64,000 bases of DNA from an uncultured Clostridia bacterium (GTDB taxonomy: Bacteria > Bacillota > Clostridia > Oscillospirales > Ruminococcaceae), in assembly GCA_947625125.1 (NCBI GenBank), contig CANQNF010000001.1:62001-126000 (forward strand), read 5' to 3'. Both the position numbers and the translations under genes were made by a program. The notes under the pieces are model-generated. The model saw nothing but the letters and a program-made list of their open reading frames with translations, made no database searches and was not told the origin of the DNA. Positions within the stretch are counted from its first letter, which is position 1, and each line of letters starts with the position of its first letter. Shown here in pieces: positions 36,220 to 59,892 of this stretch.

Positions 36220-36233
36220 GAAGCGCGTTTAGC

Positions 36234-36607
36234 GCAAGCCCGAAGCAAGCAAAATCTAAAAAGTTCGCCAGCCTTTCAAGGCTGCAGGGGTCTTGGGGAC
36301 GGAGTCCCCAAGTCGCAGCCCGCAGGCTGCGAAATCCCCCGAGAGAACGCCGGCAGGCGTTCTCGAGGGATAAGCGACAGCGAAGCGCAGGAAAGGGAGC
36401 AAAAACAGTCCTGTGGACAGTTTTGCCGTAGGGGACCCTCGCCGGGGGTCCCCTATGCGGCGAGCGCGAATGCGCGAGCCGCACTCGGAAAAGGGTTCGG
36501 GGAAAACCCTGCAAGGGTTTTCCCCGAAAGTTACCGGTCTGCACAAGCCCCGAGCGAGCGAACGCGGCAGAGTTCGCGAGCGAGGGGGAGAGGCGCAAAG
36601 GCAAAAG
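36234..36607 (+). repeat. Hairpin-chain repeat element, copy 1
   Basis: Shares left boundary GCAAGCCCGAAG, the internal CGCAGCCCGCAGGCTGCG hairpin, AAACAGTCC/GGAC pair, GGGGACCC/GGGTCCCC, GGGGAAAAC..TTTTCCCC and the end module AAGCCCCGAGCGAGCG with copies 2 and 3. No protein is supported. A GC hairpin and pyrimidine tract fill 36608-36880. Confidence 0.85.
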
Positions 36608-36845
36608 TCAGCACCAACACCCCTCCCTTGGGGGAGGGGTCGGGGGAGGGGGATATTAAATAGCATGAGCGAAGCGAATACCTTTTTAACTCGGGAGGCA
36701 TGGACAGGAATTAAAATTCTCGGACTATTCTTATCTTTTGGGGCGGGTTCGAGGCACAAATCCATAGCCTTACTCCCTCTCTCCCGCATCCGTCTGTAGC
36801 TGCGAACTTGGTGAGTAACGCTGCAAATTCCCGCCCTCTCCTCAC

Positions 36846-36878
36846 CTCTATCCTCTACCCTCTATTTTCTATCTTCTA
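36846..36878. repeat. CTCTATC-type tract, copy 1
   Basis: A run of TCTATC/CTCTA units. Its inverted counterpart is at 59363-59396. Each lies beside a hairpin-chain element. Confidence 0.7.
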
Positions 36879-36880
36879 TG

Positions 36881-36909
36881 TTGACTTCACCCCGAAAAAG
36901 TGCTAAAAT
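36881..36909 (+). promoter_or_regulatory. Promoter of the ROK kinase gene
   Basis: TTGACT (36881-36886) and TAAAAT (36904-36909) with 17-base spacing. Confidence 0.7.
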
Positions 36910-36931
36910 AATAAAAAAGGAGGAGATTTCC

Positions 36932-37879
36932 GTGAAATATTACATAGGTATCGACCTCGGCGGCACGAATATAGCCGCAGGAGTCTGCAATTCGGAATTT
37001 AAAATAATCGCCAAGGCTTCCACCCCGACCAACCGTCCGAGGCCCTGTAAGGATATCTGCTACGATATGGTTAAGGTCTCGCTTGAGGCGATAGAAAAGG
37101 CAGGCCTTACGCTTTCCGACATCGAGTCGGTGGGCGTGGGTTCGCCGGGGACGGTGAACAGCGACCTCGGGGTCATCGAGTATTCCAACAACCTCGATTT
37201 TTATAACGAGCCCGTCGCCAAGTATATCCGCGACGAGATGGGCCTGCCGGTCTATGTCGAAAACGACGCCAACGCGGCGGCTTACGGAGAATTTGTGGCA
37301 GGCGCTGCAAAGGGCGCTAAGGACGCGGTCTGCATAACCCTCGGCACGGGCGTCGGCGGCGGAATAATCATCGGCGGAAAAATTTATTCGGGATTTAATT
37401 ATGCCGGAGCAGAGATCGGCCATATGGTGGTCGAGGTCGACGGCGTACAGTGCACATGCGGCAGAAAGGGCTGTTTCGAGGCGTACAGCTCTGCCACCGG
37501 TCTTATAAGGATGACGAAAGAGGCCATGGACGCTCACCCCGAGTCTAAGATGCACGAAATGATGGGAGATCACGTCTCCGGCCGTCTTGCGTTTAACGCC
37601 ATGCGCGCAGGCGACGAGGCCGCAAAATCCGTCGTAGACAAATACATAAAATATCTCGCCGAGGGCATCGCCAATACTATAAATATTTTCCAGCCTGAAA
37701 TTCTCTGCATCGGCGGGGGAGTCTGCAACGAGGGAGACGCGCTTATGGAGCCGTTAAAGGCCGAGGTCAGGGAGCTTGTCTATTCCAAGCGTTCCGAGAG
37801 AAACACGGCGATAGTAAGGGCCGAGCTCGGCAACGAAGCCGGCGTCATCGGCGCCGCATTCCTCGGGATAAGCAAGTAA
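36932..37879 (+). CDS. ROK-family glucokinase
   Basis: 315 residues from a GTG start with GGAGGAG upstream. It contains DLGGTNIAAGV (phosphate loop), VENDANAAAYGE (catalytic aspartate), LGTGVGGGIIIGG and the zinc-binding CTCGRKGCFEAY of ROK proteins. There is no N-terminal helix-turn-helix, so it is a kinase rather than a repressor. Glucose is the most likely substrate, with phosphate from ATP. The longer ATG frame overlaps the promoter and is rejected. Confidence 0.92.
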   Translation: MKYYIGIDLGGTNIAAGVCNSEFKIIAKASTPTNRPRPCKDICYDMVKVSLEAIEKAGLTLSDIESVGVGSPGTVNSDLGVIEYSNNLDFYNEPVAKYIRDEMGLPVYVENDANAAAYGEFVAGAAKGAKDAVCITLGTGVGGGIIIGGKIYSGFNYAGAEIGHMVVEVDGVQCTCGRKGCFEAYSSATGLIRMTKEAMDAHPESKMHEMMGDHVSGRLAFNAMRAGDEAAKSVVDKYIKYLAEGIANTINIFQPEILCIGGGVCNEGDALMEPLKAEVRELVYSKRSERNTAIVRAELGNEAGVIGAAFLGISK

Positions 37880-37888
37880 GGGAAAATT

Positions 37889-38962
37889 ATGGGCATTTTT
37901 AAATCATTATTTGGCAGTAATTCTAAAACTCCTGAGTCTGAGAAGAATACTGAAAAAGTATCTGATTCCAAAAGAGGGTATGTCAGTGCCGGCGGTTTAT
38001 ATCCCGATGAACTTGCTATGCTTGCTCTCGCTGAAAAATTCAAGACCGAGGAGACAAATTATCCGGATTATTTAAGGTCAAAATTCTTTATTGGTTTCCC
38101 GTCGAGCACTTTGAATTCCCTTTTGTCTCGCGGCTTTTTAAGAATGAGCACGCCCTCGGAAATGCTTTCTACTTTAAAATTGTCTGATTTAAAGAAGATA
38201 GCGTCCGAACACGGCTTAAAAGTCAGCGGGTCAAAAGAGGAATTATGTGGTAGGATTTCTTCTTCTTTAGACGAGTCTGAGTATGCAGATGCAGTGCATG
38301 TTAAATACTGGAAGCTGACAGATAAAGGCTATAATGAACTTGCAGCAAACCCATATATAACTTATATGACTGCAAAACATTTATATAGTCTTGAAAATCA
38401 CGGCATAAATATTGTCACCTTGAATTCAATAATACATAATTTGCCGAAATATAGTATAAGAGATATTGTATGGTCCGAAATGAACAAGGCAAGAATTATT
38501 GAATATAAACAAGCAATCAAAGAACGTAATTTTCAACAGTATGCCAATTTGCTATACACAGCAACATTGTTTTTGAAAGAAGAGTCAAAATTTAGAAACG
38601 CTTTAAATTCTTATTTTGACTATATTTTCTATAGGGAAAATTTTGTAGCCGGAGCGAACGGTATAATTCTTGGTTCCTCGAAAAGCAACCTGTCAATAGA
38701 CTTTTATGTTTATGCCGAGCTTATGCCTTATGAATTAGATATAATAAGTGAATTGACGGAGAAAAATGGGCTTGATGAAAAATCTTTAAGAGAATTGATG
38801 AATAATAATTTTTCAGCTCAACAGGATAGCGGCGTTTTCAGTAACAAGCAGCTCATAGATTTTGTTATATCGGAAATGAATGGGAGAAAAAAGGATTCGC
38901 AGGAGATTTGCTTGGATGTCGAAAAGAACATAAGAAGGATATTGAAAAAAGGTCATTTCTAA
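37889..38962 (+). CDS. SAP-domain protein of foreign-looking composition
   Basis: 357 residues. Residues ~95-130 (MLSTLKLSDLKKIASEHGLKVSGSKEELCGRI) form a SAP motif, a small DNA-binding helical pair. The rest is helical and unrecognised. Codons are visibly richer in A/T than the flanking genes, which points to recent transfer. It starts 10 bases after the ROK kinase. The function is unknown; phage and mobile-element proteins often carry SAP domains. Confidence 0.7.
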   Translation: MGIFKSLFGSNSKTPESEKNTEKVSDSKRGYVSAGGLYPDELAMLALAEKFKTEETNYPDYLRSKFFIGFPSSTLNSLLSRGFLRMSTPSEMLSTLKLSDLKKIASEHGLKVSGSKEELCGRISSSLDESEYADAVHVKYWKLTDKGYNELAANPYITYMTAKHLYSLENHGINIVTLNSIIHNLPKYSIRDIVWSEMNKARIIEYKQAIKERNFQQYANLLYTATLFLKEESKFRNALNSYFDYIFYRENFVAGANGIILGSSKSNLSIDFYVYAELMPYELDIISELTEKNGLDEKSLRELMNNNFSAQQDSGVFSNKQLIDFVISEMNGRKKDSQEICLDVEKNIRRILKKGHF

Positions 38963-39007
38963 GATTTAAAAGGTTTAATTAAGTTTTTACAAAATCGGAG
39001 GACCGCC

Positions 39008-39475
39008 ATGAGCCTTTTGATCAGGCAGAAGATCTTCACCCTGACCGATACCTACGAGGTCAGAGACGACGCCGGCAGGCCGAGATACGCCGTATCTACG
39101 GAGTTCCTGACCCTCGGGCACCACATCCACATCGTCGACCTTGAGACCGGCCGCGAGGAGGCCTCGATAGACGAGAAGCTGCTGACATTTTTGCAGAAAG
39201 CCGATATAACGGTCCGCGGCAGCAGTATTCTCATGCGCCGTGAGTTTACGTTTTTCGTCCCGAGATACAGCCTTTCTAACGGCTGGAGCGTGGACGGCGA
39301 CTTTTTGGGACTTGAATATGATATAAAAAATTCCTTGGGAGACGCTGTCGCACGGGTCTCCAAAAGGCTTCTGAGTTTAAGCGATACATACGAGCTTTAC
39401 ACATATGAGCGCTCGAACGAACTTGCGGCGATGGCGGTGGCGATAACTATAGACATGATGAACTGCCGGAATTAG
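39008..39475 (+). CDS. LURP-one-related family protein
   Basis: 155 residues beginning MSLLIRQKIFTLTDTYEV, with repeated YEVRD / YELYT strands and MRREFTFFVPRYSL. This matches LOR/YxjI-like proteins, which fold as a 12-stranded barrel around a central helix. Their bacterial function is unknown. GGAGG lies 5 bases upstream. It is translated just before ruvX. Confidence 0.8.
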   Translation: MSLLIRQKIFTLTDTYEVRDDAGRPRYAVSTEFLTLGHHIHIVDLETGREEASIDEKLLTFLQKADITVRGSSILMRREFTFFVPRYSLSNGWSVDGDFLGLEYDIKNSLGDAVARVSKRLLSLSDTYELYTYERSNELAAMAVAITIDMMNCRN

Positions 39476-39483
39476 GAGGACAA

Positions 39484-39921
39484 ATGGTAATTTTAGCGAT
39501 AGATTACGGCGATTCGAGGACGGGCCTTGCCGTCTGCCAGAAGTCCGAAGCGATAGCCTCTCCGCTCGGGACGGTGTTTGAAAAAAGCCCCGAAAAGCGC
39601 TTTGAAAAGCTAAAAGCGGCCGCATTGGAGCAGGGGGCCGAGCTAATCGTCGTGGGTCATCCCGTGAACATGGACGGCAGCGTCGGAGAGCGCGCAAGAC
39701 TCTGCGAAGAGTTTGCCCATCGGCTTGAGCAGGAGACCGGGATAAAGACGGTCCTTTGGGACGAGCGCGTGACGACCGTTCAGGCCATCGGCATTTTAAA
39801 CGAGACCAACGTCCGCGGCAAAAAGCGCAAGGAGGTCATCGATTCGGTGGCGGCGACGCTTATCCTCGAAAGCTATCTTGACTACCGAAGAAAAAAGGGC
39901 CTCAGCGGCCTGAAATATTGA
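39484..39921 (+). CDS. ruvX: Holliday junction resolvase-like RuvX (YqgF)
   Basis: 145 residues with an RNase H-like fold: IDYGDSRTGLAV carries the first catalytic aspartate, VVGHPVNMDGS follows, then WDERVTTVQA and IDSVAATLILESYLD. The family acts in pre-16S rRNA 5' processing or junction resolution. GGAGG lies 6 bases before the ATG. A terminator follows at once. Confidence 0.93.
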   Translation: MVILAIDYGDSRTGLAVCQKSEAIASPLGTVFEKSPEKRFEKLKAAALEQGAELIVVGHPVNMDGSVGERARLCEEFAHRLEQETGIKTVLWDERVTTVQAIGILNETNVRGKKRKEVIDSVAATLILESYLDYRRKKGLSGLKY

Positions 39922-39927
39922 AAAAAT

Positions 39928-39957
39928 CCCACCCGGACGATCTCCGAGTGGGTTTTT
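39928..39957 (+). terminator. Terminator after ruvX
   Basis: CCCACCCGG and CCGAGTGGG arms (one mismatch), then TTTTT. Confidence 0.85.
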
Positions 39958-39972
39958 GAATCATTATTTTTA

Positions 39973-40905
39973 TCATGCTTTGGCGGTCTCGGCCTCTTTC
40001 TCCTCGGCTTCGAGGGCGTAGGCTGTCTCGATTTTTTTGAGCAGTTTTATCATATCCTCGCTCTGACGGGGGGTCTTTTTATATTTCCCGAGCGTTCCGG
40101 CCAATTTTCTCGCCAGATCCTTGCGCCCGAGCCTTAAATACACCAACCCGAGGTACAGCCCCGCCCAGACCCTTACCTCGATGGGCTTGCAGTCGAGCAT
40201 ATCCTCAAACCCTGCTTTAGCGCCGTAGAAGTCCTTTTCGGCATACTTGAGCAGCGCGTCCGTCAGAAGCTTCTCCGGCATATCCGGGTATCTTGACACG
40301 AACGACTGACCGAGCGCGACGGTGGATTTGGCGCTCTCAATATCGCCGGTCAGGAGAAAAAGATAGGTGTAGAGCGTGTAATATCTTGCGGCAAGCCTTG
40401 GGTCGAAGCGGTCGAGGTCGATATCTCTTAAGACTGCGAAAGCGTCCTCATATCTTCTTCCGTCGCAGTACGCTTTAGCAGCGCAAAGGTCGTTTCTTGC
40501 GCCAAGCGAGGTCCCGCTCAATTCTCTGCGCTTGTCCTCGATAAGGTCGAAGTATTCCTTTGAATAGCCCGTTTTTTTGAGCACCTTGGCCGCACGCCTG
40601 CGCTGAAGTCTGTAGATCGTTAAAACGATGATGTAGATAAGAAGCGCCGTGAGCGCGAATACCGCAATTATGCAGGCTATCGAGCAGGCAAAGCTGAAGT
40701 TTTCGGTGAGCCATGCCGGCAGATCGGTCCCCATGAACGAGCCGCTTATGCTGAGATTAAAATTTAGGATAGGGAACCAGTTATAGATATTTTTTTCGGA
40801 AATAAGGCCGATGACGACTGCTCCGATAAGAAGCGCCGACAGAAAGAGGACGATGCAGAAGAGCCAGATGCGGAGGCTTCTGGCCTCAAGTCTTGACTTA
40901 ATCAT
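39973..40905 (-). CDS. Membrane protein with TPR-like repeats
   Basis: 310 residues. There are two membrane helices (~12-36 and ~70-100), then a cytoplasmic helical solenoid with TPR character (AAKAYCDGRRYEDAFAVLRDID, LGLVYLRLGRKDLARKLAG). No family name is certain. It follows the type VII-like operon by 142 bases on the same strand and could be its last member or an independent gene. A scaffold role is plausible. Confidence 0.65.
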   Translation of the reverse strand: MIKSRLEARSLRIWLFCIVLFLSALLIGAVVIGLISEKNIYNWFPILNFNLSISGSFMGTDLPAWLTENFSFACSIACIIAVFALTALLIYIIVLTIYRLQRRRAAKVLKKTGYSKEYFDLIEDKRRELSGTSLGARNDLCAAKAYCDGRRYEDAFAVLRDIDLDRFDPRLAARYYTLYTYLFLLTGDIESAKSTVALGQSFVSRYPDMPEKLLTDALLKYAEKDFYGAKAGFEDMLDCKPIEVRVWAGLYLGLVYLRLGRKDLARKLAGTLGKYKKTPRQSEDMIKLLKKIETAYALEAEEKEAETAKA

Positions 40906-41047
40906 GGATTAACACCTCGCAGTTTAGGGGCAAAATCATGCCGTATAACCATCATATCACATTTTTCAAAAAAACGCAACTGTTATTTTTTAAAAATAAG
41001 GCAGAAAAACGGCGAAGAAAACAGGGGGTACTTGTCATCTCAAGGGG

Positions 41048-42328
41048 TCAATATACGAAGTTGAGAACAGAAATCAGCTCCCAGTCTTCGTTAATCTCAT
41101 TATTTATCATTATCGGAGACTTGTTGTAAGCGGATTCCCTTATCGGCAAATTATCGCTGTCATATTCTATTATATAAAGGTAATGCGGCAATTCCATGTC
41201 CATATATTGATCATAAAATTTTTCTTCGATCCTGACCAAATTTCCCACGGAGTCATACTCGTAATATATGTATCTTGTCCATGTCGGCCCACGGTTGTCA
41301 AAAATCTTAATTATCCGGCCGTTCGAGTCAAAATCATATGTATAAATTTCTTCTTGATCAATACCGGAAATATATGTAGAAACAGATGCATTGGTAAGCT
41401 TGTTCTGACTGTCGTATTTATACGTCACTGTCTCGCTTCCGTTTGCGACCGATTGGAACGATTTAACAATATAGCCGTCCTTGTTATACTCCGAGTACAT
41501 TTCTTTAATATAGCCTGAGTCGTCGGTAAAGTTAAGTACCCAAACTTCTCTTTCAGGGTCATACTCGAGTAAACTGGCATTAGCGGCTTCATCGTAGGGC
41601 TGAGGGTCCTCATATTTATTTTCCGTCTTAGTCACATTTACATTATGTTCTCCCGGATCTGTAAGTGGGTTGAAGTTGTTATCACTGCTCATATAGGCAG
41701 TATGAGCAACAGCTTTTCCGGAGTCGTCATATTCGGTTTCGTTCATCCCCAGCCATTGCCGAGAAGTTGAGTATATCGAGAATTGATTATAGCGCTTGAC
41801 ATTGGGGTTGTCGGATGGTGCGCGCTGCACAAAGCCGCCGAAAGCTATTATCGAAAAGTCGGGCTCTACTATCGGCATAACCTCCGGCGTTTCCTCCTCC
41901 TGCTCCGTTTGCTCTTCCTGCCCGGTCGTCTCCGGCCCGCCCCTGTCCTCATCCCCGCCGGCCTCGGTCTCGCCTTGGCCCTCGCCGCCTGCAGAGGCCG
42001 CCGCTTCCGCAAGCGCTCTTATCTCCTCGAGTTTTGCCCGCAGCTCGTCGCTGTCGGTCTCGGCGATGCCCCTCTCAAGCGCTTCAATGGCGCTCTCATA
42101 GTCCCCAAGCGCGGCATATGCGTCCGCAAGGCCGATGTACGCTTCAACATTTTTCGGGTCGATTTCGATGACCCGGTTAAATTCGACGATTGCCTGCTCA
42201 TAATTACCGTCGAGCAGGTATTTTTGTCCCAAATCAAGATGCGACTGCCACTCTGCCTTTTGAGCAGCGCACGAAACCAGCCCGAGCGCAAGCGCAAAGA
42301 CTGTTAAAAAAACAATAAATTTTTTCAT
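41048..42328 (-). CDS. TPR lipoprotein with YD-type repeats
   Basis: 426 residues. Lipobox GLVSCA; TPRs at about 30-105 (GQKYLLDGNYEQAIVEFNRV and AYIGLADAYAALGDYESAI); a Glu/Gly-rich linker (~110-150); then strand repeats like TYKYDSQNKLTNASV and YYEYDSVGNLVRIEE, reminiscent of YD/Rhs repeats. It is anchored outside the membrane. It sits 12 bases after the 50-residue membrane protein in the secretion operon, so it may form the extracellular part of that system; that is inference. Confidence 0.75.
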   Translation of the reverse strand: MKKFIVFLTVFALALGLVSCAAQKAEWQSHLDLGQKYLLDGNYEQAIVEFNRVIEIDPKNVEAYIGLADAYAALGDYESAIEALERGIAETDSDELRAKLEEIRALAEAAASAGGEGQGETEAGGDEDRGGPETTGQEEQTEQEEETPEVMPIVEPDFSIIAFGGFVQRAPSDNPNVKRYNQFSIYSTSRQWLGMNETEYDDSGKAVAHTAYMSSDNNFNPLTDPGEHNVNVTKTENKYEDPQPYDEAANASLLEYDPEREVWVLNFTDDSGYIKEMYSEYNKDGYIVKSFQSVANGSETVTYKYDSQNKLTNASVSTYISGIDQEEIYTYDFDSNGRIIKIFDNRGPTWTRYIYYEYDSVGNLVRIEEKFYDQYMDMELPHYLYIIEYDSDNLPIRESAYNKSPIMINNEINEDWELISVLNFVY

Positions 42329-42340
42329 TTTTATTCCTCT

Positions 42341-42493
42341 TTATTCCGATTTTCCGTATTCGCGGTCGAGTTTTTTCCTGAGCCGTTTGCGGCTTCCGGC
42401 TAAGGCCGCCGTCACGATGACCGCGGCGATTGCCGTAACCGCAAGCCCTAAAATACCGCCGTAGAAAAGAATTTCGCCATGCGTTAAAGCCAT
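42341..42493 (-). CDS. 50-residue membrane protein in the secretion operon
   Basis: A short frame with strong AAAGGAGG, beginning MALTHGEILFYGGIL. It has one membrane helix (GGILGLAVTAIAAVIVTAAL) and a basic tail (SRKRLRKKLDREYGKSE). It lies 12 bases after the kinase gene and 12 bases before the lipoprotein gene, as expected of a true operon member. It could be a small subunit of the secretion channel. Confidence 0.75.
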   Translation of the reverse strand: MALTHGEILFYGGILGLAVTAIAAVIVTAALAGSRKRLRKKLDREYGKSE

Positions 42494-42505
42494 AATTTTC
42501 CTCCT

Positions 42506-44578
42506 TTACAGCCAGCCGTTGTCCCTAAGCTCCGAAATAAGCCCCTCGAGGCGCTGCATTTCGGGGTCGGATTCTCCCGGCTTCACGCTGTTTTTATACA
42601 TTTCCTGCGCGCTCTCAAAGTACTTTTCTGCCTCAGAATAGTCCCTCTCGTCCGTCGGCGCCATGCTCTGGCGGTCGGCCTCCAAAAACGCCTGCCTCAT
42701 CGGCACCCGGTAGTTGTCCGGGAAGTCCTCCGACATTTTTTTCAGAATATCGTCCGCAAGCTCGAATTTTCCGGCATTGTGATAGAGTATCGCCAGATCC
42801 TGCATTATCCTGAAATCGGGCGAACCCTCGCCGATAAGCTCCTCAAAGACTCCTATCGCCTTTTCGGTATCTCCGAGGGCGATATATGCGTCGGCAAGCC
42901 TCTCTTTCATCTCAAACTCCCGTCCCACGGGAATTTTATCAAAGCAGCTTTCCAAAAGCTCCGCAGATTTTTCTGTCATTCCGAGACGGCGGTATGCTTC
43001 ATCGGCGGTCTTGACGGCGCGGTATCTTATATATTCGTCGCCCGACGTACCGGATAGCCCGCAGAGAATCTCTGCCGCGGCCTCGAAATTGTCCTCCGAA
43101 AAAGCCGCTTCGCCGTTTAAAAGGCTGAGGCTGTCGTCCGAAATTCTGAGTTCATTCGCTCTTGAAATTATTTTTCTCGCACCGTCACTGTCGCCGGTTC
43201 TTGCAAGCGAGATGGCGTAGTCGCGGAAGTATGCCGGCTCGTTCGGGGCGTTTTCCGTGGCAGTCTTAAAACAGTCTCTTGCGGCGGCATAGTCCGGCTC
43301 GGCGGCCTGATAATAGGTGTTCCCGAGAATGTAATATATCCCGCCGTAGTCGGCCCTTGCCTCCGGGATGTCCCTGAACTCGGCGATATTTCCGAGGTTG
43401 CTTTCAATATATGCCCGGCATGCGGCAGCGTCTCCGTCGTTCCATAGCCTCTCGGCCATGGCCCTGTAGGGGTCTATCCTGTCCCAGAAGAGCGACAGCG
43501 CGTCGTCGTAGGAGCTTTCCGGCTCGCTTCCGTTGATTATTCCGTACACGTCGTTGAAATAGCGCTCCTCTTTTTCCTGGGCCATGGTTTTGCTGCCGAA
43601 AACGGTCATCCCGGCAAATCCCGCAAAAGCGAGCGCAAGAACGGCTCCTGCTATGGCGGAACGTCTTTTTGAGGCGCGCCAGCGGGAGTCGAGCTTATAT
43701 ATTGAATTTATCGCGTCATAAAGCTGAGCCGCAGAGGGAAATCTTTCTTTCGGCTCAAGTCTCATGCATTTTTCGATTATGCTCACGACGGCCATGCCGT
43801 ACTTTCCGGATTTCTTTAATGACGCCGTCTTTCCGGCGTTTTCCGGGGGTCGTACGCCGCTGAGAAGATGATACATCGTCGCCCCGAGGCTGTAAATGTC
43901 CGACAGCTTCCAATCTATCCCCAAAGAGACGTTTTTCGGCTTTACCTCGGGCTTTTTGGTTTTATCTAAAATTTCGGTGAGCTCTTCGTCAGACCCGTCG
44001 TCCGGGACTTCTGGAGCGCTCATCCGCTTTTTGAAGCTTTCGTATATTTCATATTGCTCGGGAGAGGCATACCCGAGGCTTCGGCTTATGAGCCTTACGT
44101 CGTTGCCGCTTACAAGCGCCGCGTTAAAGTCGATAAGACATACGTCCCCGCTCGGACCGAGCATGATATTCGCGGGCTTTATATCGCGGTGGCAGATATT
44201 CTGCTTATGTATAACGCTCAGGGCGGACGCAAGCTGTCCGAACCACTTTACCACCTGCTGCTGAGTAAATTTTTCCCCACGGTCCAAGAGCTTGTCCATG
44301 CTCTCGCCCTCGACAAACTCCATCACCGTAAAGACGCGTCCGTCCTGCTGGATAAAGTCAAGGACCTGCGGCAGATATGGGCTCTTCACGTTTTTAAGAG
44401 CCTCGGCCTCGTTTCTTCTGGTGCCGGTGTCGGCGCCCTCGGGGTCCTTGAGTTCCTTTATAACTACATATTTTTCCAGTCTTGTATGCCACGCCTTGTA
44501 GACTTTTCCGCCGCCGCCCTCGCCGAGTTCCCTCTCTATTTTGAACGACGGGTCGGAGAGTATGCTGTTTTCCTCCAT
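42506..44578 (-). CDS. Ser/Thr protein kinase with membrane helix and TPR domain
   Basis: 690 residues. The kinase domain (~12-290) has glycine loop GEGGGGKVYKA, lysine in VVIKELK, catalytic HRDIKPANIM, and DFN where most kinases have DFG. It is followed by SLGYASPEQYE. A membrane helix lies at ~308-330, then an external part rich in TPRs (~390-660). The order kinase-helix-outside recalls EssB/YukC, the pseudokinase of type VII systems, but here catalytic residues are present. It is therefore a candidate replacement for EssB and regulator of the neighbouring FHA protein. Confidence 0.88.
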   Translation of the reverse strand: MEENSILSDPSFKIERELGEGGGGKVYKAWHTRLEKYVVIKELKDPEGADTGTRRNEAEALKNVKSPYLPQVLDFIQQDGRVFTVMEFVEGESMDKLLDRGEKFTQQQVVKWFGQLASALSVIHKQNICHRDIKPANIMLGPSGDVCLIDFNAALVSGNDVRLISRSLGYASPEQYEIYESFKKRMSAPEVPDDGSDEELTEILDKTKKPEVKPKNVSLGIDWKLSDIYSLGATMYHLLSGVRPPENAGKTASLKKSGKYGMAVVSIIEKCMRLEPKERFPSAAQLYDAINSIYKLDSRWRASKRRSAIAGAVLALAFAGFAGMTVFGSKTMAQEKEERYFNDVYGIINGSEPESSYDDALSLFWDRIDPYRAMAERLWNDGDAAACRAYIESNLGNIAEFRDIPEARADYGGIYYILGNTYYQAAEPDYAAARDCFKTATENAPNEPAYFRDYAISLARTGDSDGARKIISRANELRISDDSLSLLNGEAAFSEDNFEAAAEILCGLSGTSGDEYIRYRAVKTADEAYRRLGMTEKSAELLESCFDKIPVGREFEMKERLADAYIALGDTEKAIGVFEELIGEGSPDFRIMQDLAILYHNAGKFELADDILKKMSEDFPDNYRVPMRQAFLEADRQSMAPTDERDYSEAEKYFESAQEMYKNSVKPGESDPEMQRLEGLISELRDNGWL

Positions 44579-44594
44579 TTTTCCCTCATTTCCC

Positions 44595-50996: not shown

Positions 50997-51026
50997 AACA
51001 CCCTCCGAAAATAAATATACAAAACT

Positions 51027-52209: not shown

Positions 52210-52218
52210 AATTAAAAT

Positions 52219-52244
52219 CCCCGTCTTTGGCGGGGTTGTTTTTT
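52219..52244 (+). terminator. Terminator after GH26
   Basis: CCCCG/CGGGG hairpin followed by TTGTTTTTT. Confidence 0.85.
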
Positions 52245-52311
52245 GTTTTCAGCAACCTCCCGAGCGCTTTTTGCATCTTAATAGGTAGAACGTTCTGAAA
52301 TAGGAAAGCAG

Positions 52312-52872: not shown

Positions 52873-54467
52873 ATATACCGAGGCTTGCAAAGCTTTTGGG
52901 AGAAGCCGACGAAAGGTATATCCTTGAAGCCGCGGAGGAGGAGACCAAAATGACCAAAAAAATAACAAGAGGAAAAATTATCGCAGTCTTGGCGGCATGC
53001 GTCTGTCTAATCTGCCTGATGGCGGCAGGCCGAGCGCTCTTTGATTCAAAAGATTATCTTGAGGATTTCGACGCCGACCCAAGCTATATGCTCCAGGACA
53101 AGATGATAACAAGCGACGGCGAGGGCAATTATTTCGGCATAATCATGTGCAGAAACGGGTTCAGGCTGATGGGCTCGGACGGCTCGGGCGGCGAGAACGC
53201 ATATAACATTTGCGACGTGCCGGGCTGCGACCATACCGACAATACGGTCTGCCTGGCGCTCGGATGGCCGGAATTCACGGGCCTGTCATTCTATGACGGA
53301 AGACTGTACTGGACGGCAAGACCCAAAGGGGTAGATTTGTCCGAAAGATTAGATACCGTCGATATACTTTCCGCAAAGGCCGACGGCAGCGATATTCGTG
53401 TGGAAAGAGAGGTTTCGGGCGAGGTGTTTGACGACACCATGTATAACAAGTATATCCGTGCGCACAGGGGCTATATGTATTTCATCGGCGTTCACGAGCC
53501 CGAGGAGGTTTTCGATTCCGAGACTATGACGTCGCATAAAAAAGACCCCGACGAAAGGTACACGCTCAACGTGTATGCCGAGGAGCTTAAGGAGAACGGC
53601 GGGAGTGAGAAGATTTTTTCTTTGGAGTATGAGGACGGCGCATATACTACGTTTACATCACAGTTTTATGCAAACGATCTTTATATCATGCTCAAGTCGC
53701 AGAGCATGGACGATCCCGAAAAAATCAAGTTTGAGATATATAAGGTCGATCTGAATTCTCATGCCTCAAAAAAAATCTACAGCACGAAAAAATACGATAT
53801 TTCCTGTTGGTGGATGGGAAGCGGCGAGAGGCTTTATTACACCGAAAACGGCAAATCGGAGCTGATGGAGCTTGACGTCGGAAAGGGCAGGCCGAAGAAG
53901 ATGTTCAATATCCCGAACGGAGACATCAAAACGGTGATAAACGGCAAGGCGGTAAGCTTGGACGGAAACGCCGAAAAGGTCTGGGTCACGGATTTTGACG
54001 GCAGGACCACGGAGCTTGATTTCAGCGCGATGGCGGAACAGGTCAGGGAAGAGTACGGCTATGCGGGGATAGCGGTCTGCGGGGTAGACGACAAGAACGT
54101 GATATTGCAGATGTGCGACGACGAATGTTTCGGGATAGTGCCGCTTGACGGAAGCGAGCCGAGGCTGATAATCGCATCCTGCATAAGCGACCCGAGGTTT
54201 GAGAGGATGGGTAATATTATCCGAGCAAGCCCGAAGAAAGAAAAAACTAAAAAGTTCGCCAGCCTTTCAAGGCTGCGGGGGTCTCGGGGACAGAGCCACC
54301 GAGTCGCAGCCCGCAGGCTGCGAAATCCCCCGAGAGAACGCCGGCAGGCGTGCTCGAGGGATAAGCGTAAGCGAAGCGCAGGAAAGGGAGCAAAAACAGT
54401 CCGGTGGACGGGTTATTATATCATTACTTTGGCGAAGACGAAGTCTTCGCTAAGCGACACTAACTAA
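52869..54467 (+). CDS. Sigma-linked membrane protein, C-terminus replaced by repeat sequence
   Basis: A ~38-residue cytoplasmic part starts MNIPRLAKLLGEADERYI. One membrane helix (~37-58) and a long outer beta-rich domain with CDVPGCDHTDNTVC near residue 115 follow, the same motif as the lipoproteins at 23-25 kb. The start overlaps the sigma gene (ATGA), so an anti-sigma or sensor role is likely. From about residue 452 the frame runs into hairpin-chain copy 2 and gains ~80 Arg/Lys-rich residues (RVAARRLRNPPRERRQ) before a chance stop. The native end has therefore been lost or displaced. Confidence 0.75.
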   Translation: MNIPRLAKLLGEADERYILEAAEEETKMTKKITRGKIIAVLAACVCLICLMAAGRALFDSKDYLEDFDADPSYMLQDKMITSDGEGNYFGIIMCRNGFRLMGSDGSGGENAYNICDVPGCDHTDNTVCLALGWPEFTGLSFYDGRLYWTARPKGVDLSERLDTVDILSAKADGSDIRVEREVSGEVFDDTMYNKYIRAHRGYMYFIGVHEPEEVFDSETMTSHKKDPDERYTLNVYAEELKENGGSEKIFSLEYEDGAYTTFTSQFYANDLYIMLKSQSMDDPEKIKFEIYKVDLNSHASKKIYSTKKYDISCWWMGSGERLYYTENGKSELMELDVGKGRPKKMFNIPNGDIKTVINGKAVSLDGNAEKVWVTDFDGRTTELDFSAMAEQVREEYGYAGIAVCGVDDKNVILQMCDDECFGIVPLDGSEPRLIIASCISDPRFERMGNIIRASPKKEKTKKFASLSRLRGSRGQSHRVAARRLRNPPRERRQACSRDKRKRSAGKGAKTVRWTGYYIITLAKTKSSLSDTN

Positions 54468-54680
54468 TGGAAAGTTTTGCAGAAAGTAAAGAGTGTCGCT
54501 TGAAACCACTCGCCGGGGGTTTCCCCGACCCGACGGCATGAAATGCCGTCGGGCTTCGCGAAAGGGGCTTGGGGAAAACACCTTGCAAAGGGGTTGTCCC
54601 CGAAAGCTGCCGGTCAGCACAAGCCCCGAGCGAGCGAACGCGGCAGCGTTCGCGAGCGATGGGGAGGCACAAAAGTAAAA
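54225..54680 (+). repeat. Hairpin-chain repeat element, copy 2
   Basis: Same module order as copy 1, with a spacer at about 54412-54500 and a CCCGACGGCAT/ATGCCGTCGGG hairpin shared with copy 3. It begins inside the 3' end of the sigma-linked gene and ends before DUF6171. Confidence 0.85.
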
Positions 54681-54720
54681 ACCCCGCCCCTCCGAGCCTT
54701 TCGCTCAAAGGGGCGTTCGT

Positions 54721-55008
54721 TTACCATTTTTTTAACGCGCTCGGACAGTAATTCTTCCTCGCCGCTGCCCTTAGCTCTACAAAGCACCCGCACTCCCGGC
54801 AGATGCCGTTCTGAAGCCCGTCGCAGCTTCTGCAAATCTCAAGCCTGCGACTGTATTCGCCGTCGGGGCACTTCACGTCCTCGGGCAGAGCCTCGATAAG
54901 CTCCCCGACTTTTTTATAGAGCCCGTCCGGGTCGACTTCCGCTAAAAGACACCGCTTGCAGACAGGTTTTCCGTCTATCAGCACAGCTCTATCGAGATAA
55001 CGGAGCAC
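54721..55008 (-). CDS. DUF6171 family protein
   Basis: Up to 95 residues. Eight cysteines in CxxC-like pairs (VCKRCLL, ICRSCDGLQNGICRECGCF, NYCPSALKKW) suggest one or two metal-binding knuckles, as in DUF6171 proteins of Clostridia. The start is uncertain: ATG at 55008 lies inside the arabinofuranosidase gene, and GTG at 54984 overlaps its stop. It is co-transcribed with abfA. Function unknown. Confidence 0.75.
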   Translation of the reverse strand: MLRYLDRAVLIDGKPVCKRCLLAEVDPDGLYKKVGELIEALPEDVKCPDGEYSRRLEICRSCDGLQNGICRECGCFVELRAAARKNYCPSALKKW

Positions 55009-56450
55009 TTGGGAAGCTTGAGAGTGAGCTTCTCGCCGTCGAGCTTGACGCCGTCATACGCCTTGGGCGAGACATTGTCGGGGTCCTCAAAGGTGTTGAT
55101 ATCGTCGTATTTTCCGGTCAGGATCTTCGCGGAAACAGTCTTGTATTCGGCCCTCGGAATGGCGCAGTCTATGTCAAAGTCCTCCGAAAGAGAAGCGTTT
55201 GATATGGTTATGTGCATCTTGCCGCTGTCGTCGACGGATACCGACTGCGAAACGGCAGGGAATTTGCCGTCCTTGGCCTCAATATCGACGTTGTCGCAGC
55301 CCGAGTAGACGAGCATTGCTTCCATATGCTCCTTATACATGTCAAAGACGTGATAGGTCGGAGTTTTTACCATCTTGTCGCCCTCGGTCAGGAGTATCGC
55401 CTGCAAAACGTTGATCATCTGCGCGATGTTCGCCATCTTTACGCGGGCGGAGTGCTCGTTGAAGAGGTTCAGGTTGATGGACGCCAGAATAGCGTCTCTT
55501 ACGGTGTTCTGTTGATAGAGGAATCCGGGGTTGGTGCCCTCCAAGACGTCGGTCCAGATTCCCCATTCGTCGACGATAAGTCCGATTTTTTTGTCATTGT
55601 CATAGCGCTGCATGACGCCCTCCTGGTCCTTGAGTATCCTCTCCATGAACCAGGTGTGCTGCAACGTGTTGTAATATTCTTCCTCGGAGAACTTGACCGA
55701 GTCGCCCTTGTGCTGCCACTGATTAGTCGGGACGGTGTAGTGATGGAGTGACAGCCCCTGCATCTGCCACGGTCCGACGTTTTTCATCATCCCGTCGGTC
55801 CAGTTGACGTCGTTAGAATTCGGTCCGCATGCTATCTGCTGTTCTGCGCCCCTGACGAAGCAGTGGAACTGCTTATAAAGGCTTGAATAATAGTCGGCGT
55901 TCATCTCGCCGCCGCAGCCCCAGTTTTCGTTGCCGATGCCGACATACTTGACTTTCCAGGGGTTCTCGCGGCCGTTTTTCTTTCTCAGCTCGGTCATCGG
56001 GCTTTCGTTGGCGGAGGTCATGTACTCCATCCATTCGGCGGCCTCCTGGACGGTGCCGGAGCCGACGTTTACGGCGACATACGCTTCGCAGCCAATAAGC
56101 TCGCAGAAGTCAAGAAACTCATGCGTGCCGAAAGAGTTGTCCTCGGTAACTCCGCCCCAGTGGATGTTTACTATCTTCTTGCGGTTTTCCTTGGGGCCGA
56201 CGCCGTCCCGCCAGTGGTATGTATCGGCGAAGCATCCGCCCGGCCAGCGAACGACGGGGACTTTGATGGCCTTAAGGGCCTCGACGACGTCTTTGCGGTA
56301 GCCCTTGATGTTCGGAACGGGGGAGTCCTCGCCGACGTAGATGCCGCCGTAGACGCATCTTCCGAGGTGTTCTGCGAAGTGGCCGTAGATCTCCTTGTTG
56401 ATTTTTGATATTTTGTTGTTTTTGTCGATGGTCATTTTAAGTGTTGCCAT
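54978..56450 (-). CDS. abfA: Alpha-L-arabinofuranosidase, GH51
   Basis: 490 residues. A (beta/alpha)8 core with VVRWPGGCFADTYHWRDGVGP, the acid/base glutamate in GIGNENWGCGG, the nucleophile in IVDEWGIW, and a C-terminal beta-sandwich (from ~390) match cytoplasmic GH51 enzymes that release arabinose from arabinan or arabinoxylan fragments. No signal peptide. GGAGGAAAAA precedes the ATG; promoter at 56478-56506. Confidence 0.95.
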   Translation of the reverse strand: MATLKMTIDKNNKISKINKEIYGHFAEHLGRCVYGGIYVGEDSPVPNIKGYRKDVVEALKAIKVPVVRWPGGCFADTYHWRDGVGPKENRKKIVNIHWGGVTEDNSFGTHEFLDFCELIGCEAYVAVNVGSGTVQEAAEWMEYMTSANESPMTELRKKNGRENPWKVKYVGIGNENWGCGGEMNADYYSSLYKQFHCFVRGAEQQIACGPNSNDVNWTDGMMKNVGPWQMQGLSLHHYTVPTNQWQHKGDSVKFSEEEYYNTLQHTWFMERILKDQEGVMQRYDNDKKIGLIVDEWGIWTDVLEGTNPGFLYQQNTVRDAILASINLNLFNEHSARVKMANIAQMINVLQAILLTEGDKMVKTPTYHVFDMYKEHMEAMLVYSGCDNVDIEAKDGKFPAVSQSVSVDDSGKMHITISNASLSEDFDIDCAIPRAEYKTVSAKILTGKYDDINTFEDPDNVSPKAYDGVKLDGEKLTLKLPKCSVISIELC

Positions 56451-56477
56451 AATTTTTCCTCCTTGCCTTTTTACCCT

Positions 56478-56506
56478 ATAATACTACGTTTAGGGCGATA
56501 TGTCAA
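56478..56506 (-). promoter_or_regulatory. Promoter of abfA
   Basis: TTGACA (56501-56506) and TATTAT (56478-56483), 17-base spacer, minus strand. Confidence 0.8.
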
Positions 56507-56734
56507 CCGTTTTATCAAAACTTTCAAAGATTTCATATACTTTTCATTTTTGATTTATCCTAAGATTGCACTAAGATATAGTTTTGCATTTATGCAGATT
56601 TGCTGACATATAATCACTGATTTCTTGCATTTTATGATATTTTTGCGGAGCATGAGGCATGGGGACCGCTTTTTTTCCTGCTCTTTTTCCACATTTTCAG
56701 CCCGCTTCGGCCGTGTTTTTATCTAATCTGCCGA

Positions 56735-56763
56735 TTGACAGAAAAGCGGGGATGTGCTATAAT
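56735..56763 (+). promoter_or_regulatory. Promoter of the T-box transcript
   Basis: TTGACA (56735-56740) and TATAAT (56758-56763), 17-base spacer with TGC before the -10. The stretch 56507-56734 shows nothing else. Confidence 0.88.
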
Positions 56764-56769
56764 CCTATA

Positions 56770-57036
56770 AATGAATAAATTCCACAAAGGCAGCGACGAA
56801 GACGGAATCCGCAAAATTTGTCGGCAGAGAGCCGGGCAAGCTGAAAACCGGCGGCATGATTACGGGTTCAAATCACTTCCGAGCCGGAACTCCGAAGTAT
56901 AAACTCAGGGGCTCCCGTGTGCGCGCGTTAAAGCGCAAGGGCTTTTAAAGAGCCTGAAGCGGCGGACTTTGTCCGCAATTTGAGTGGTACCGCGGGAACA
57001 TCCCGTCTCAAAGTTTTCTTTGGGACGGTTTTTTTA
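56770..57036 (+). promoter_or_regulatory. T-box leader, isoleucine-type specifier
   Basis: GAGTGGTACCGCGGGA (56982-56997) is the T-box sequence that pairs with uncharged tRNA. AGAGAGCCGG and GCTGAAAACCGG fit stem I. The triplet ATC (56872-56874), placed directly before ACTTCCGAG as in other T-boxes, reads as an isoleucine specifier. The terminator is CCGTC.CAAAG/CTTTG.GACGG plus T7 (57003-57036). Low charged tRNA-Ile should allow read-through. Confidence 0.88.
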
Positions 57037-57088
57037 ATGACGCGGGACTGCTTAAGAAAAGAAATTTATTTTAAGGAGAAGAAGTACC

Positions 57089-59362
57089 ATGAGCAACCAG
57101 ACTGCAAGCCGGCTCGCAGAGATCGCCGAAAGAATCCGTGAAATGCGCGAGATAATGGGCTGGACGACTGCGGAGGCGGCGGAAAAGACCGAGGTCTCCG
57201 AGGAGGAGTATCTTAAGTACGAGAGCGCGGAGGCCGATCTTCCGTTTACCTTTATCCACAAGTGCGCGCTCGCTTTCGACGTCGACCTCACCGACCTTTT
57301 GGAGGGACGTACTGCGGCGAGACTGTCGAGCTACACCCTGACAAGAAAGGGTCAGGGTCAGGTCACGGCGCATGAAAAGGGCATCGACATCGCAAATCTT
57401 GCGCCGAAATTCCGCGACAAGATAGCCGAGCCGTACTGGGTAAAGTACGACTATATCGAGTCTCAGCAGAACGTGCCGATACACCTCACCAAGCATTCGG
57501 GCCAGGAATTCGACATTATTATTTCGGGCAGCCTCAAAGTCCAGGTCGGCAGCCATATCGAGATATTAAACGAGGGCGACTCCATTTATTATAACTCTTC
57601 CACGCCTCACGGAATGATCGCCGTGAACGGAAAAGACTGCGTGTTCGTGGCGGTAGTCCTGCCGGGCGAGGATGATACCGAGGAAACGGCCCGCACGTCC
57701 CTTATTCAGGCCAACCGCCCGAAGAAGGACGCCCTTTTGGCGGAGCGCTTCGTCGATTTTATCGAAGACGAAAACGGCAAGCTTGTGGACATGAAATTCC
57801 ACGACACCGAGACGTTCAACTTCGGCTTCGACTGCGTCGACGCTATCGCCGACAAATACCCCGACAAGCTCGCGATGATACATGTTGACAAGCATAAGGT
57901 CGAGCGCAGATTTACTTTTAAGGACATGAAGCGCGCCACCAACCAGACCGCAAACTATCTTCGTTCGCTCGGCATAAAGCGGGGCGACAAGGTCATGCTC
58001 GTCTTAAAGAGGCATTATCAGTTCTGGTTCGCGATGGTTGCGCTGCATAAACTCGGAGCTATCGCCATTCCCGCCACGAACCAGCTCAAGCAGCACGACT
58101 TCGAGTACCGCTACGAGCGCGCAGGCGTTTCGGCGATACTCTGCACGGCTGACGGCGACGTCGCCGATATAGCCGAGAGAGCCGCAAAGAACTGCCCGTC
58201 GGTAAAGACCAAGATACTTGTCGGCGGCGCAAAGGACGGCTGGCACGACTTCGACAACGAGTACCAGCTCTACACCGGCAAATTCGAGCGCCCCGAGGAT
58301 TGCTCTTCGGGTCAGGAGCCGGCGCTGATGTTCTTCACTTCCGGCACGACCGGCAACCCGAAGATGGCTCAGCACGCCCATACATACGCCCTCGGCCACT
58401 TCGTGACCGCCAAATACTGGCACTGCTGCGAGCGCGACGGGCTTCACCTGACGATTTCCGACACCGGCTGGGGCAAGTCACTTTGGGGCAAGCTCTATGG
58501 GCAGTGGCTCTGCGAGGGCGCTGTGTTTGTGTATGACTTCGACAAATTCGACGCCGCGGATATTCTGCCGATGTTCGCAAAATATAATATTACGACATTC
58601 TGCGCGCCCCCGACGATGCTGAGAATGATGATAAAAGAGGACCTTTCGATATTCGATCTAAGCTCTATCCATCACATGACGACCGCAGGGGAGGCATTGA
58701 ATCCGGAGGTCGCGAAGCAGTTCAAGCAGGCGACCGGGCTTGAGATAATGGAGGGCTTCGGCCAGACCGAGACCACGCTCGTCATCGGAAACCTCTACGG
58801 CGATACGCCGAAGTACGGCTCGATGGGCAAGGCTTCTCCTCAGTATGATATAGACATTTTAGACCCCGACGGCAATCCCGTGGCGAACGGCGAAGTCGGC
58901 GAGATATGCATAAAAACCTCCGAAGAAGTCCCGCTCGGTTTGTTCTTGCAGTATTATCTGGACGACGGATTGACGAAAGAGGCATGGCACGACGGCTACT
59001 ACCACACCGGCGATACGGCGTGGAGGGATGAGGACGGGTATTTCTGGTATGTTTCGAGGATAGACGACGTCATCAAGTCCTCGGGCTACAGAATCGGCCC
59101 GTTCGAGATAGAGAGCGTCATCATGGAGCTGCCGTATGTTTTGGAATGCGGCGTATCGGCTGTGCCGGACGAGATCAGGGGTCAGATAGTCAAGGCGAGC
59201 ATAGTGCTCACAAAGGGCACGGTCGCCACGGAAGAGCTGAAAAAGGAGATACAGAACTACGTCAAGAGCCACACAGCGCCATACAAATATCCGAGAGTAA
59301 TCGTATTCAGGGATGAGCTTCCCAAGACGATAAGCGGAAAGATTCAGAGAAACAAGCTGTGA
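57089..59362 (+). CDS. XRE-cupin-acyl-CoA synthetase fusion
   Basis: 757 residues. An XRE helix-turn-helix (~8-72), a cupin (~95-190, LTKHSGQEFDIIISGSLKVQVG) and an ANL adenylating domain follow, with FFTSGTTGNPKM, YHTGDTAWRDEDGYFW, DDVIKSSGYRIGPFE and the catalytic lysine in KTISGKIQRNKL. It should activate an acid as acyl-AMP and then acyl-CoA. T-box control and the VOR/aminotransferase neighbours point to a branched short-chain acid rather than acetate; this is inference. Start 57089 follows AAGGAG. Confidence 0.85.
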   Translation: MSNQTASRLAEIAERIREMREIMGWTTAEAAEKTEVSEEEYLKYESAEADLPFTFIHKCALAFDVDLTDLLEGRTAARLSSYTLTRKGQGQVTAHEKGIDIANLAPKFRDKIAEPYWVKYDYIESQQNVPIHLTKHSGQEFDIIISGSLKVQVGSHIEILNEGDSIYYNSSTPHGMIAVNGKDCVFVAVVLPGEDDTEETARTSLIQANRPKKDALLAERFVDFIEDENGKLVDMKFHDTETFNFGFDCVDAIADKYPDKLAMIHVDKHKVERRFTFKDMKRATNQTANYLRSLGIKRGDKVMLVLKRHYQFWFAMVALHKLGAIAIPATNQLKQHDFEYRYERAGVSAILCTADGDVADIAERAAKNCPSVKTKILVGGAKDGWHDFDNEYQLYTGKFERPEDCSSGQEPALMFFTSGTTGNPKMAQHAHTYALGHFVTAKYWHCCERDGLHLTISDTGWGKSLWGKLYGQWLCEGAVFVYDFDKFDAADILPMFAKYNITTFCAPPTMLRMMIKEDLSIFDLSSIHHMTTAGEALNPEVAKQFKQATGLEIMEGFGQTETTLVIGNLYGDTPKYGSMGKASPQYDIDILDPDGNPVANGEVGEICIKTSEEVPLGLFLQYYLDDGLTKEAWHDGYYHTGDTAWRDEDGYFWYVSRIDDVIKSSGYRIGPFEIESVIMELPYVLECGVSAVPDEIRGQIVKASIVLTKGTVATEELKKEIQNYVKSHTAPYKYPRVIVFRDELPKTISGKIQRNKL

Positions 59363-59396
59363 TAGAGGATAGAAGATAGAGGGTTAGAGGATAGAG
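59363..59396. repeat. CTCTATC-type tract, copy 2 (inverted)
   Basis: TAGAGGATAGAAGATAGAGG and following bases are the reverse complement of the tract at 36846-36878, with few differences. Confidence 0.7.
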
Positions 59397-59477
59397 CAGG
59401 GTTTTAAAGCTTGTCGCAAGGTTCAGGCGAGCGAAATCTGAAAGGTTTTACCCCGCTTTTCCTCAAATGAACAAGCT

Positions 59478-59892
59478 GGTTTTGTAGCTGCGGGACTGCC
59501 CTCATCAAAAACGACCGATTCGGTTGTCCCGCAGACAAAACCCCGCGTGTTCCAGCGGGCAGGTTCCAAGGGCAGCGCCCTTGGTCGCAGCCCGCAGGCT
59601 GCGAAATCCCCCGCATCCGGAAAGGATGCCGTCAGGCATCGTTTTCGGATGCTTAATCCGAAAAAAGATCAGGAGGGTAGCCCAAACAGTCCGGTGGACT
59701 GTTTGGGCGTAGGGGACCCTATCAAGGGGTCCCCTACCCGACGGCATTTCATGCCGTCGGGCTTCGCGAAAGGGGCTCGGGGAAAACACCTTGCAAAGGG
59801 GTTGTCCCCGAAAGCTGCCGGTCAGCAGAAGCCCCGAGCGAGCGAACGCGGCAGCGTTCGCGAGCGAGGGGGGAGAGCCGCACAGGCAAGAG
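59478..59892 (+). repeat. Hairpin-chain repeat element, copy 3
   Basis: Outer arms GGTTTTGT (59478) and ACAAAACC (59535-59542) enclose a first hairpin. The modules shared with copies 1 and 2 follow, ending in AAGCCCCGAGCGAGCG...GAGCGAGG. It lies between the synthetase and the P-loop gene, whose ribosome site follows it. Confidence 0.85.

Follow-up and report, generated by a model that had tools for sequence, protein, structure and literature searches.

We analysed a window of 64,000 nucleotides from an uncultured Clostridia bacterium (contig CANQNF010000001.1 of assembly GCA_947625125.1, positions 62,001 to 126,000, forward strand), in which three chains of hairpins lie at 36234-36607, 54225-54680 and 59478-59892. 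Comparison with relatives from many genomes led us to a reading that we hold with modest confidence, a little above even: the repeats are non-autonomous mobile elements of one family, which carries a conserved structured RNA of about 165 nucleotides, mainly serving the element. This core unit consists, on the + strand, of hairpins A, B and C, a linker with CAGGA, and hairpins D and E; as derived from aligned copies, its minimal form is AGTTTTCG, A, B, C with the loop CGCA, a linker ending in CAGGA, D and E. The larger copies of the window contain this minimal unit, with hairpins F, G and H lying outside the core. A first-pass annotation of the window had described three copies with a common hairpin order and common linkers, and this was borne out; all three lie on the + strand. 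Each was also unusually stable when folded, with z values of −7.9 for copy 1 (36225-36620), −7.8 for copy 2 (54225-54680) and −11.8 for copy 3 (59478-59892), and in no case was any of 100 shuffles equally stable.

Covariation was measured in an alignment of 32 sequences (A1) made with MAFFT without structure. Its source was a search pattern with 107 matches, 66 of which had a recognisable start; 12 of these loci were dropped by eye as truncated, unusual or unrelated, thinning at 95% reduced the remaining 54 to 47, and 32 were aligned. As the pattern fixes CAGGA together with the inner stem and loop of D, invariance at those positions is by construction. Four of five measures lay above control in this structure-free alignment, the mark of a structured noncoding RNA. 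Paired cells made up 95.9%, against 81.0% in shuffled and at most 56.2% in slid controls; 29 of 50 pairs changed on both sides, against 20.1 in shuffles; 250 cells carried two-sided changes, against 74.6; and the covariation score reached 0.419, compared with 0.149 for shuffled alignments and no more than 0.117 for slid ones. The shuffle control ignores relatedness among the sequences; the slid control does not. In alignment A4, with 92 model-fitted matches (89 distinct), two-sided change was found in 46 of 47 pairs. The covariance analysis over relatives that the first-pass annotation had called for thus strongly supported its proposal that the folded form matters. Its more specific claim, that several stems differ between the window's copies with both arms changed, stood only in part. 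The first stem that it quoted, CTTGGGGAC/GTCCCCAAG versus CCAAGGGC/GCCCTTGG, is a clean two-arm change; the second represents non-homologous hairpins swapped in one slot; and the third shows no covariation, for in copies 2 and 3 GGGGAAAAC faces GTTGTCCCC with an A opposite a G. Much of the variation within the window consists of whole hairpins exchanged between copies, and base-by-base covariation, not demonstrable from three copies, was demonstrated by the relatives.

The five stems are accompanied by a pseudoknot of three base pairs, in which the three bases directly 5′ of CAGGA pair with the loop of hairpin E. Its covariants were GCG/CGC, ACG/CGU, GAU/AUC, AAU/AUU and UCG/CGA, and all three positions were paired in 32 of 32 A1 sequences. 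When all matches were considered (262 unique rows minus 52 short and 24 gapped ones, leaving 186), the pseudoknot was paired in 154 rows, whereas 1000 shuffles averaged 98.5 and never exceeded 110; among the rows with a linker other than GCG it paired in 39 of 65. Within the window both sides changed between copy 1 (GCG/CGC) and copy 3 (GAT/ATC), and in copy 2 letters compatible with the pseudoknot persist across an insert. In the window's own genome a linker could be recognised in 31 copies, and 29 of these had a compatible E loop. The loop CGCA was likewise conserved across relatives. The conservation of CAGGA is weaker evidence, since many rows were found by the pattern that fixes it. In more distant members D and E are changed nearly throughout, and some copies of family f13 retain A-B-C alone.

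These observations bear on whether the fold has any function. Nested palindromic mini-elements, together with arm-to-arm correction at cruciforms, could keep stems paired without selection, and the family does contain nested hairpin inserts (M1 in the B loop at 7 places and M4 in D/E at 6, both in the window's genome) and hairpins swapped between copies. Correction of palindromes cannot, however, account for covariation of the pseudoknot between linker and loop, with hairpin D in between, and it leaves unexplained both the conserved loop CGCA and the excess of G.U over A.C described below; conserved CAGGA is a further but weaker point, as the search pattern often fixed it. We therefore disfavour this explanation and consider it highly improbable.

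The two strands could be told apart by their mismatches. On the + strand G.U outnumbered A.C by 52 to 12 in A1 and by 134 to 37 in A2 and A3 taken together; the latter set (131 of 248 rows, with at least 42 pairs filled and 80% paired) leans towards G.U, as its filter scores G.U as paired, whereas A1 had no such filter. From this excess we concluded that the + strand is the folded strand and that it is the strand under selection. The excess fits RNA and single-stranded DNA alike and cannot separate them. The fold might accordingly act as single-stranded DNA, with a transposase or recombinase recognising the top strand as it is extruded or exposed in replication, in the manner of REP/BIME sequences and IS200/IS605 ends. 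The preference for the top strand suits this as well as it suits RNA, Y1 transposases are present in the genome (10 matches), and no clear excess of sense promoters was seen upstream of the core (4.3% at 10 or more of 12 positions, compared with 1.4% shuffled and 10.6% antisense). On inspection by eye, two of the ten Y1 loci (L171 and L172) seem to be ordinary IS200 copies whose own hairpins are unrelated, and a link of the core to IS200/Y1 was rejected on that ground. A DNA hairpin substrate, moreover, has no obvious need for conserved linkers and a loop-linker pseudoknot, and the inverted ends and target duplications described below point to double-strand transposition. We regard action as single-stranded DNA as unlikely.

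Carriers of the fold are spread over one order, and a single genome can have dozens of copies. Among 394 sampled genomes of the order, which we infer to be Oscillospirales, the core was present in 64 at E ≤1e-5 (a hand count) and in 94 at E 0.001, the matches falling in ten families; only the best 7 candidates per genome were scored, so that copy numbers are lower bounds. In a sample of 398 genomes from the phylum, split into members and non-members of the order by reading a kinship-sorted list, 4 of 6 genomes of the order matched at 1e-5, as did 1 of the 392 others (G458, at 5.5e-9). A short pattern made from a conserved stretch matched exactly at least 113 stretches in GTDB genomes and none in viral contigs. 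Two of the 80 matches listed were in Myroides, the rest being assigned to Clostridia, Oscillospiraceae, Ruminococcaceae, Eubacteriales or named relatives such as Caproiciproducens; the two loci of Myroides sp. N17-2 (L078 and L130), although hit by the pattern, gave no match to the covariance model and were dropped. One core lies in a culturable carrier, Caproiciproducens galactitolivorans YR-4 (L106). A phage or plasmid origin was set aside, as neither collection gave a match and the viral contigs held no exact match to the core pattern.

Evidence for insertion came from the flanks of copies in relatives. We hand-picked 75 of the higher-scoring complete matches from 252 rows, 73 of which had enough flank (L188 and L100 in this set are one locus). 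Direct repeats of at least 11 bases between left and right flanks occurred in 18 of the 73, compared with 0 of 146 mispaired flanks. Six of the 18 had different offsets and are possibly internal repeats; the remaining 12, from 11 distinct loci, lay at matching offsets, starting 36-62 bases to the left and 54-68 bases to the right of the core. By eye these matching repeats were terminator-type host hairpins of up to 36 bases, located outside the ends AGYCTGTCGATAAA and TTTTTCTACA, and 5 of the 11 folded below the lowest 5% (−18.0) of random 45-nucleotide windows. In one genome (G398, L266 2101-2269) the core, in antisense orientation, interrupts a hairpin, which we take to be P12, of an otherwise intact RNase P RNA (202.5 bits). 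Insertion into palindromes, the habit of IS1182/IS1272-type elements, is thus seen by eye at 11 loci, by energy at 5 of the 11, and in the RNase P hairpin.

The elements also have ends. Several relatives carry terminal inverted repeats, of the CTGTCGATAAA type or the TCTTCACGGAAAGTTGGGG type. The left end outnumbered its reversed pattern by 38 to 3 in G424, 24 to 3 in G426 and 26 to 0 in G428, and was scarcer in G425 (5 to 0) and G427 (3 to 2); a longer end pattern with up to 3 mismatches gave 26 to 0 in G423. In other genomes different ends, for example TCTTCACGGAAAGTTGGGG, surround the core. Conversely, similar ends occur without it: two elements of G426 (L226 and L230) with similar inverted ends, other internal hairpins and no core match are flanked by duplicated terminator-like hairpins of 22 and 30 bases (L246, about 1004-1272 and 3185-3473). 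As the ends vary from genome to genome, the core has the look of cargo, and its recurrence between different ends makes it improbable that a single transposase reads the RNA.

The mechanism that we propose is that a transposase supplied in trans would move the elements into palindromes, mostly terminators; as the hairpin is duplicated on insertion, the host gene would keep its terminator. The RNA would be cargo not bound to one set of ends, and its function should for that reason serve the element in general rather than one host gene. A candidate role is an RNA-protein particle that aids copying or that renders insertions harmless; the simplest conjecture, and no more than a conjecture, is a task from which every element of this sort would profit. 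As to the mover, IS1182- and IS4-type transposases were considered and rejected, as in the 4 and 5 genomes with these ends that were searched for them none was found or the one found had other ends. Two matches to a DUF772-type transposase, whose domain we take to be the mark of the IS1182 family, were present in the window's own genome. Another hairpin-targeting element was noticed at L289 (about 1080-2830); it carries a DDE transposase gene (443 amino acids) between the ends ATGTCATTAAG and CTTAATGACAT, and by eye sits inside the palindrome of a terminator, the centre of which is duplicated over 10 bp.

Gene context was examined for 127 copies having 600 bases on both sides, using home-made gene calls. 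Among the 98 copies from relatives the neighbouring genes were convergent in 42, tandem and co-oriented with the core in 26, tandem and opposed in 19, and divergent in 11; for the 29 copies of the window's genome the corresponding numbers were 7, 12, 3 and 7. Of 144 copies, 37 had a terminator-like hairpin after the core (1 of 144 after shuffling); before the core, 18 of 141 copies had one. Placement favours gene ends, as terminator-seeking insertion would give, and a regulatory orientation of the core is at best weak. These data also bear on the possibility that the RNA serves the host: after insertion at a gene end it would lie in 3′ untranslated regions, control transcript stability or read-through, and be retained for that reason. 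The position of copies near 3′ ends, the upstream gene pointing at the core in 68 of the 98 relatives' copies, the 12 to 3 bias of tandem sites in the window's genome, and the greater frequency of terminator-like hairpins after the core would all agree with this. The tandem sites of relatives, however, show no clear bias (26 to 19), the 42 convergent sites are explained by a terminator-seeking transposon, and at the locus orthologous to copy 1, 9 of 11 relative loci lacked the core and 2 had it in the opposite orientation. Control of host transcripts as the main role thus seems to us decidedly improbable.

In the window's own genome (3.17 Mb, 101 contigs) the family is abundant. Copy 1 had 76 matching pieces among the best 40 of 74 candidates, falling by grouping into 41 places, some of them relics of hairpin H. 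The covariance model gave at least 69 matches at E ≤0.01 among the best 150 of 1506 candidates; at least 42 of these were at E ≤4e-8 and made 41 distinct places by grouping, 3 in the window and at least 38 elsewhere, and many of the remainder were partial or reverse-strand echoes of palindromes. Copies here are longer than those of relatives, with variable right parts and nested inserts, of which M1 occupies the loop of hairpin B and M4 replaces parts of D/E (window copy 2 among its places). Copies have exchanged the contents of their hairpin slots: the number of allele quartets in which every one of the four combinations occurs was 16 for B against the extra hairpin that follows C, 24 for B against E, but 0 for the linker against E. 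Linkage may contribute to this last value, as linker and E are close neighbours. Such nesting is not confined to this genome. Small hairpin inserts (TTCTCGCCTGCCGGCTCGG..., TTCGCTGCCGCTACGG...) were seen in different genomes within one of the core hairpins A, B and E, so that one palindrome sits in another (L062 4880-4950, L168 1081-1151, L192, L223 and L123 3686-3741). A repeated stretch of 1.9 kb at C35 contained only short frames and no recognisable gene, though no family search was made of it.

Several results weigh against the view that the elements are mobile carriers of a conserved RNA. On the side of the fold, the fifth covariation measure in A1, further pair types, gave no excess (67 compared with 63.3, a value reached by 65 of 500 shuffles). 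The full pseudoknot was absent in 32 of the 186 rows; the window's genome has two exceptions, C10:54310 (CTC) and C37:27525 (another E hairpin); and three copies of f21 (L265, L266 and L269) and one of f20 (L264) lack it by eye. The lack of a clear sense promoter, reported above, belongs here as well. On the side of mobility, the other six of the 11 duplicated repeats were not within the lowest 5% of control windows, five lying between −18.0 and the median (−8.3) and one, at −8.0, above the median. A DUF772-type transposase (PF05598) was found in 0 of 4 relatives with these inverted ends; for PF01609, 1 of 5 such genomes gave a clear match, which had other ends; other transposase families were not searched. 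Around copies of the window's genome, direct repeats of at least 11 bases between flanks occurred in 0 of 30, compared with 1 of 120 controls, and inverted flank repeats in 2 of 30, compared with 5 of 120, not above control, which leaves copy number as the support for mobility there. Finally, the downstream gene of copy 1 was present in 30 of 30 genomes of the genus, but the upstream neighbour of copy 1 stood beside the ortholog of that gene in 0 of 11 relative loci, and hence no empty site is shown. We propose that the copies of the window's genome either are old or spread by another route, and that, lacking ends and duplications, they may now swap hairpins and gain nested inserts. The structured RNA and the non-autonomous mobile element, which the first-pass annotation had offered as alternatives, may both hold, with the window's own copies being without target duplications. 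Its further alternative, a nucleoid or transcription-boundary element, gained no support from these results, though no direct test of it was made.

What distinguishes the family is that the usual dispersed bacterial repeats are single palindromes or empty transposon remnants, whereas here a single fold, complete with its covarying pseudoknot, persists in ten families of an order while the surrounding ends change. The core family is thereby a test case for what an RNA does for a non-autonomous element, and the covariance model now built can be used for searches elsewhere. A bolder extension, which we put forward as doubtful, is that the core represents a new class of pseudoknotted RNA in an RNA-protein mobility system that uses several kinds of transposon ends, a cargo letting unrelated palindrome-targeting mini-elements spread within an order of gut bacteria.

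The features of the three copies, all on the + strand, are as follows. All-against-all blastn of the window and 34 loci of its genome, at a depth of at least 2, placed the full repeated stretches at 36229-36763 (copy 1), 54217-54685 (copy 2) and 59415-59910 (copy 3); in all three the repeat reaches past the ends first assigned. Some 10-15 bases separate the start of copy 1 from the stop of the open frame before it. The core of copy 1 (36260-36456; model R1, 89.7 bits) comprises hairpin A (36269-36284), hairpin B with the arms CTTGGGGAC/GTCCCCAAG (36292-36312), hairpin C with the loop CGCA (36313-36332), the extra hairpin in the interval between C and the linker, which minimal relatives lack (36343-36364), the linker GCG-CAGGA (36385-36392), hairpin D (36399-36426) and hairpin E (36429-36455); the 5′ side of the pseudoknot, GCG at 36385-36387, pairs with the E loop CGC at 36440-36442. 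Outside the core lie hairpin F (36457-36482), hairpin G with the arms GGGGAAAACCC/GGGTTTTCCCC (36497-36527) and hairpin H (36548-36587). The core of copy 2 (54251-54522; model R1 on 54251-54351, 41.7 bits) is interrupted by M4 (54410-54502), an insert of about 93 bases that replaces the outer parts of D and E and occurs at 5 other places in the genome; GCG lies at 54376-54378 and the loop CGC at 54511-54513. In copy 3 the core (59533-59737; model R1, 102.1 bits) contains the linker GAT-CAGGA (59667-59674), whose GAT (59667-59669) pairs with the loop ATC (59721-59723) of hairpin E (59710-59736); upstream, by eye, an insert breaks hairpin A. A relic consisting of hairpin H alone lies on the − strand at 18915-19003. 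A protein-coding reading of the copies was set aside: open frames overlie them, but the copies are distinguished by insertions and deletions inside stems.

Other repeats were noted in passing. Just beyond the first assigned end of copy 1 is the run GGGGGAGGGGTCGGGGGAGGGGG (36630-36652), which could form a G-quadruplex; similar runs adjoin other copies. A different repeat array at 12703-13579 has two 300-nucleotide copies, 97% identical and partly palindromic, with the parts AGATGCGTTATTTCTTCC ... AGAAATAATCGCATCT, and a dispersed repeat of 59 nucleotides, 86% identical, at 6685-6743 and 17515-17573 is unlike the hairpin chains.

We compared the core with known RNAs and elements. No match to Rfam 15 reached gathering score over the core, only tRNA, T-box and RNase P reaching theirs, and weak matches overlapping cores were far under threshold (BASRCI153, 29.9 of 137 bits; PreQ1-III, 28-30 of 63); the match to a known family that the first-pass annotation had named as refuting its view was therefore absent at the thresholds of Rfam 15. 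A literature search, with preprints, most subscription journals and supplements outside its scope, found no description of the element, and with respect to these two sources we consider the core fold undescribed. HEARO RNA, the guide RNA of IscB, is a large multi-hairpin pseudoknotted RNA in mobile elements, and the core resembles it in being multi-hairpin, pseudoknotted and located in mobile-looking elements. The HEARO covariance model, however, was unmatched in the window at gathering score and in 24 loci at E up to 0.5 or 1, and the RRXRR domain, presumably the mark of IscB, was found in 0 of 16 core-bearing genomes, a weak negative because control genomes gave none either. With no Rfam match and with this limit on the RRXRR result, identification as an IscB guide RNA was rejected. 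The bcr1 repeats of Bacillus cereus are dispersed and intergenic, with a conserved RNA fold and compensatory changes; set side by side with the core by description alone, they differ in coming from another taxon.

Like miniature inverted-repeat transposable elements, the core elements are short, non-coding and present in many copies, with inverted ends in some genomes and a flanking duplication; unlike them, they share one conserved fold although their ends differ, and what is duplicated is a hairpin. In the window's own copies neither the ends nor the duplication was seen. REP/BIME and REPIN sequences with TnpA-REP are described as high-copy extragenic palindromes possibly mobilised in trans (PMC8266576; PMC3733652, PMC3116915). 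The core, of about 165 nucleotides with five hairpins, does not fit among REP palindromes of 20-40 bp as there described, and no REP-type transposase linked to core elements was seen at the 2 of 10 Y1 loci that were read. IS1272 is reported to target palindromes and to replace the hairpin, leaving no duplication (PMC5678879). The core elements resemble it and other palindrome-targeting IS1182 members in that the target is a hairpin structure and not a sequence; they differ in that the hairpin is duplicated around them, which fits 'pathway b', duplication of the whole stem-loop, a route so far only proposed for structure-targeting transposition (PMC5678879).

The nearest published category that we found is that of the mobile/repeat sequence candidates (MRSC), of which 250 were counted (PMC11109978). 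One example, MRSC-65-2, is a structured motif with covariation, present in dozens of copies per genome and thought to be selfish; it has a single long stem with the repeat UYCCGG and occurs in diverse phyla (PMC11109978). Compared by description, the core differs from MRSC-65-2 in having five hairpins and a pseudoknot, in being found in one order, and in lying partly inside defined ends. It is like the MRSC motifs in that it covaries, is present in many copies, and has no consistent orientation to genes (PMC11109978).

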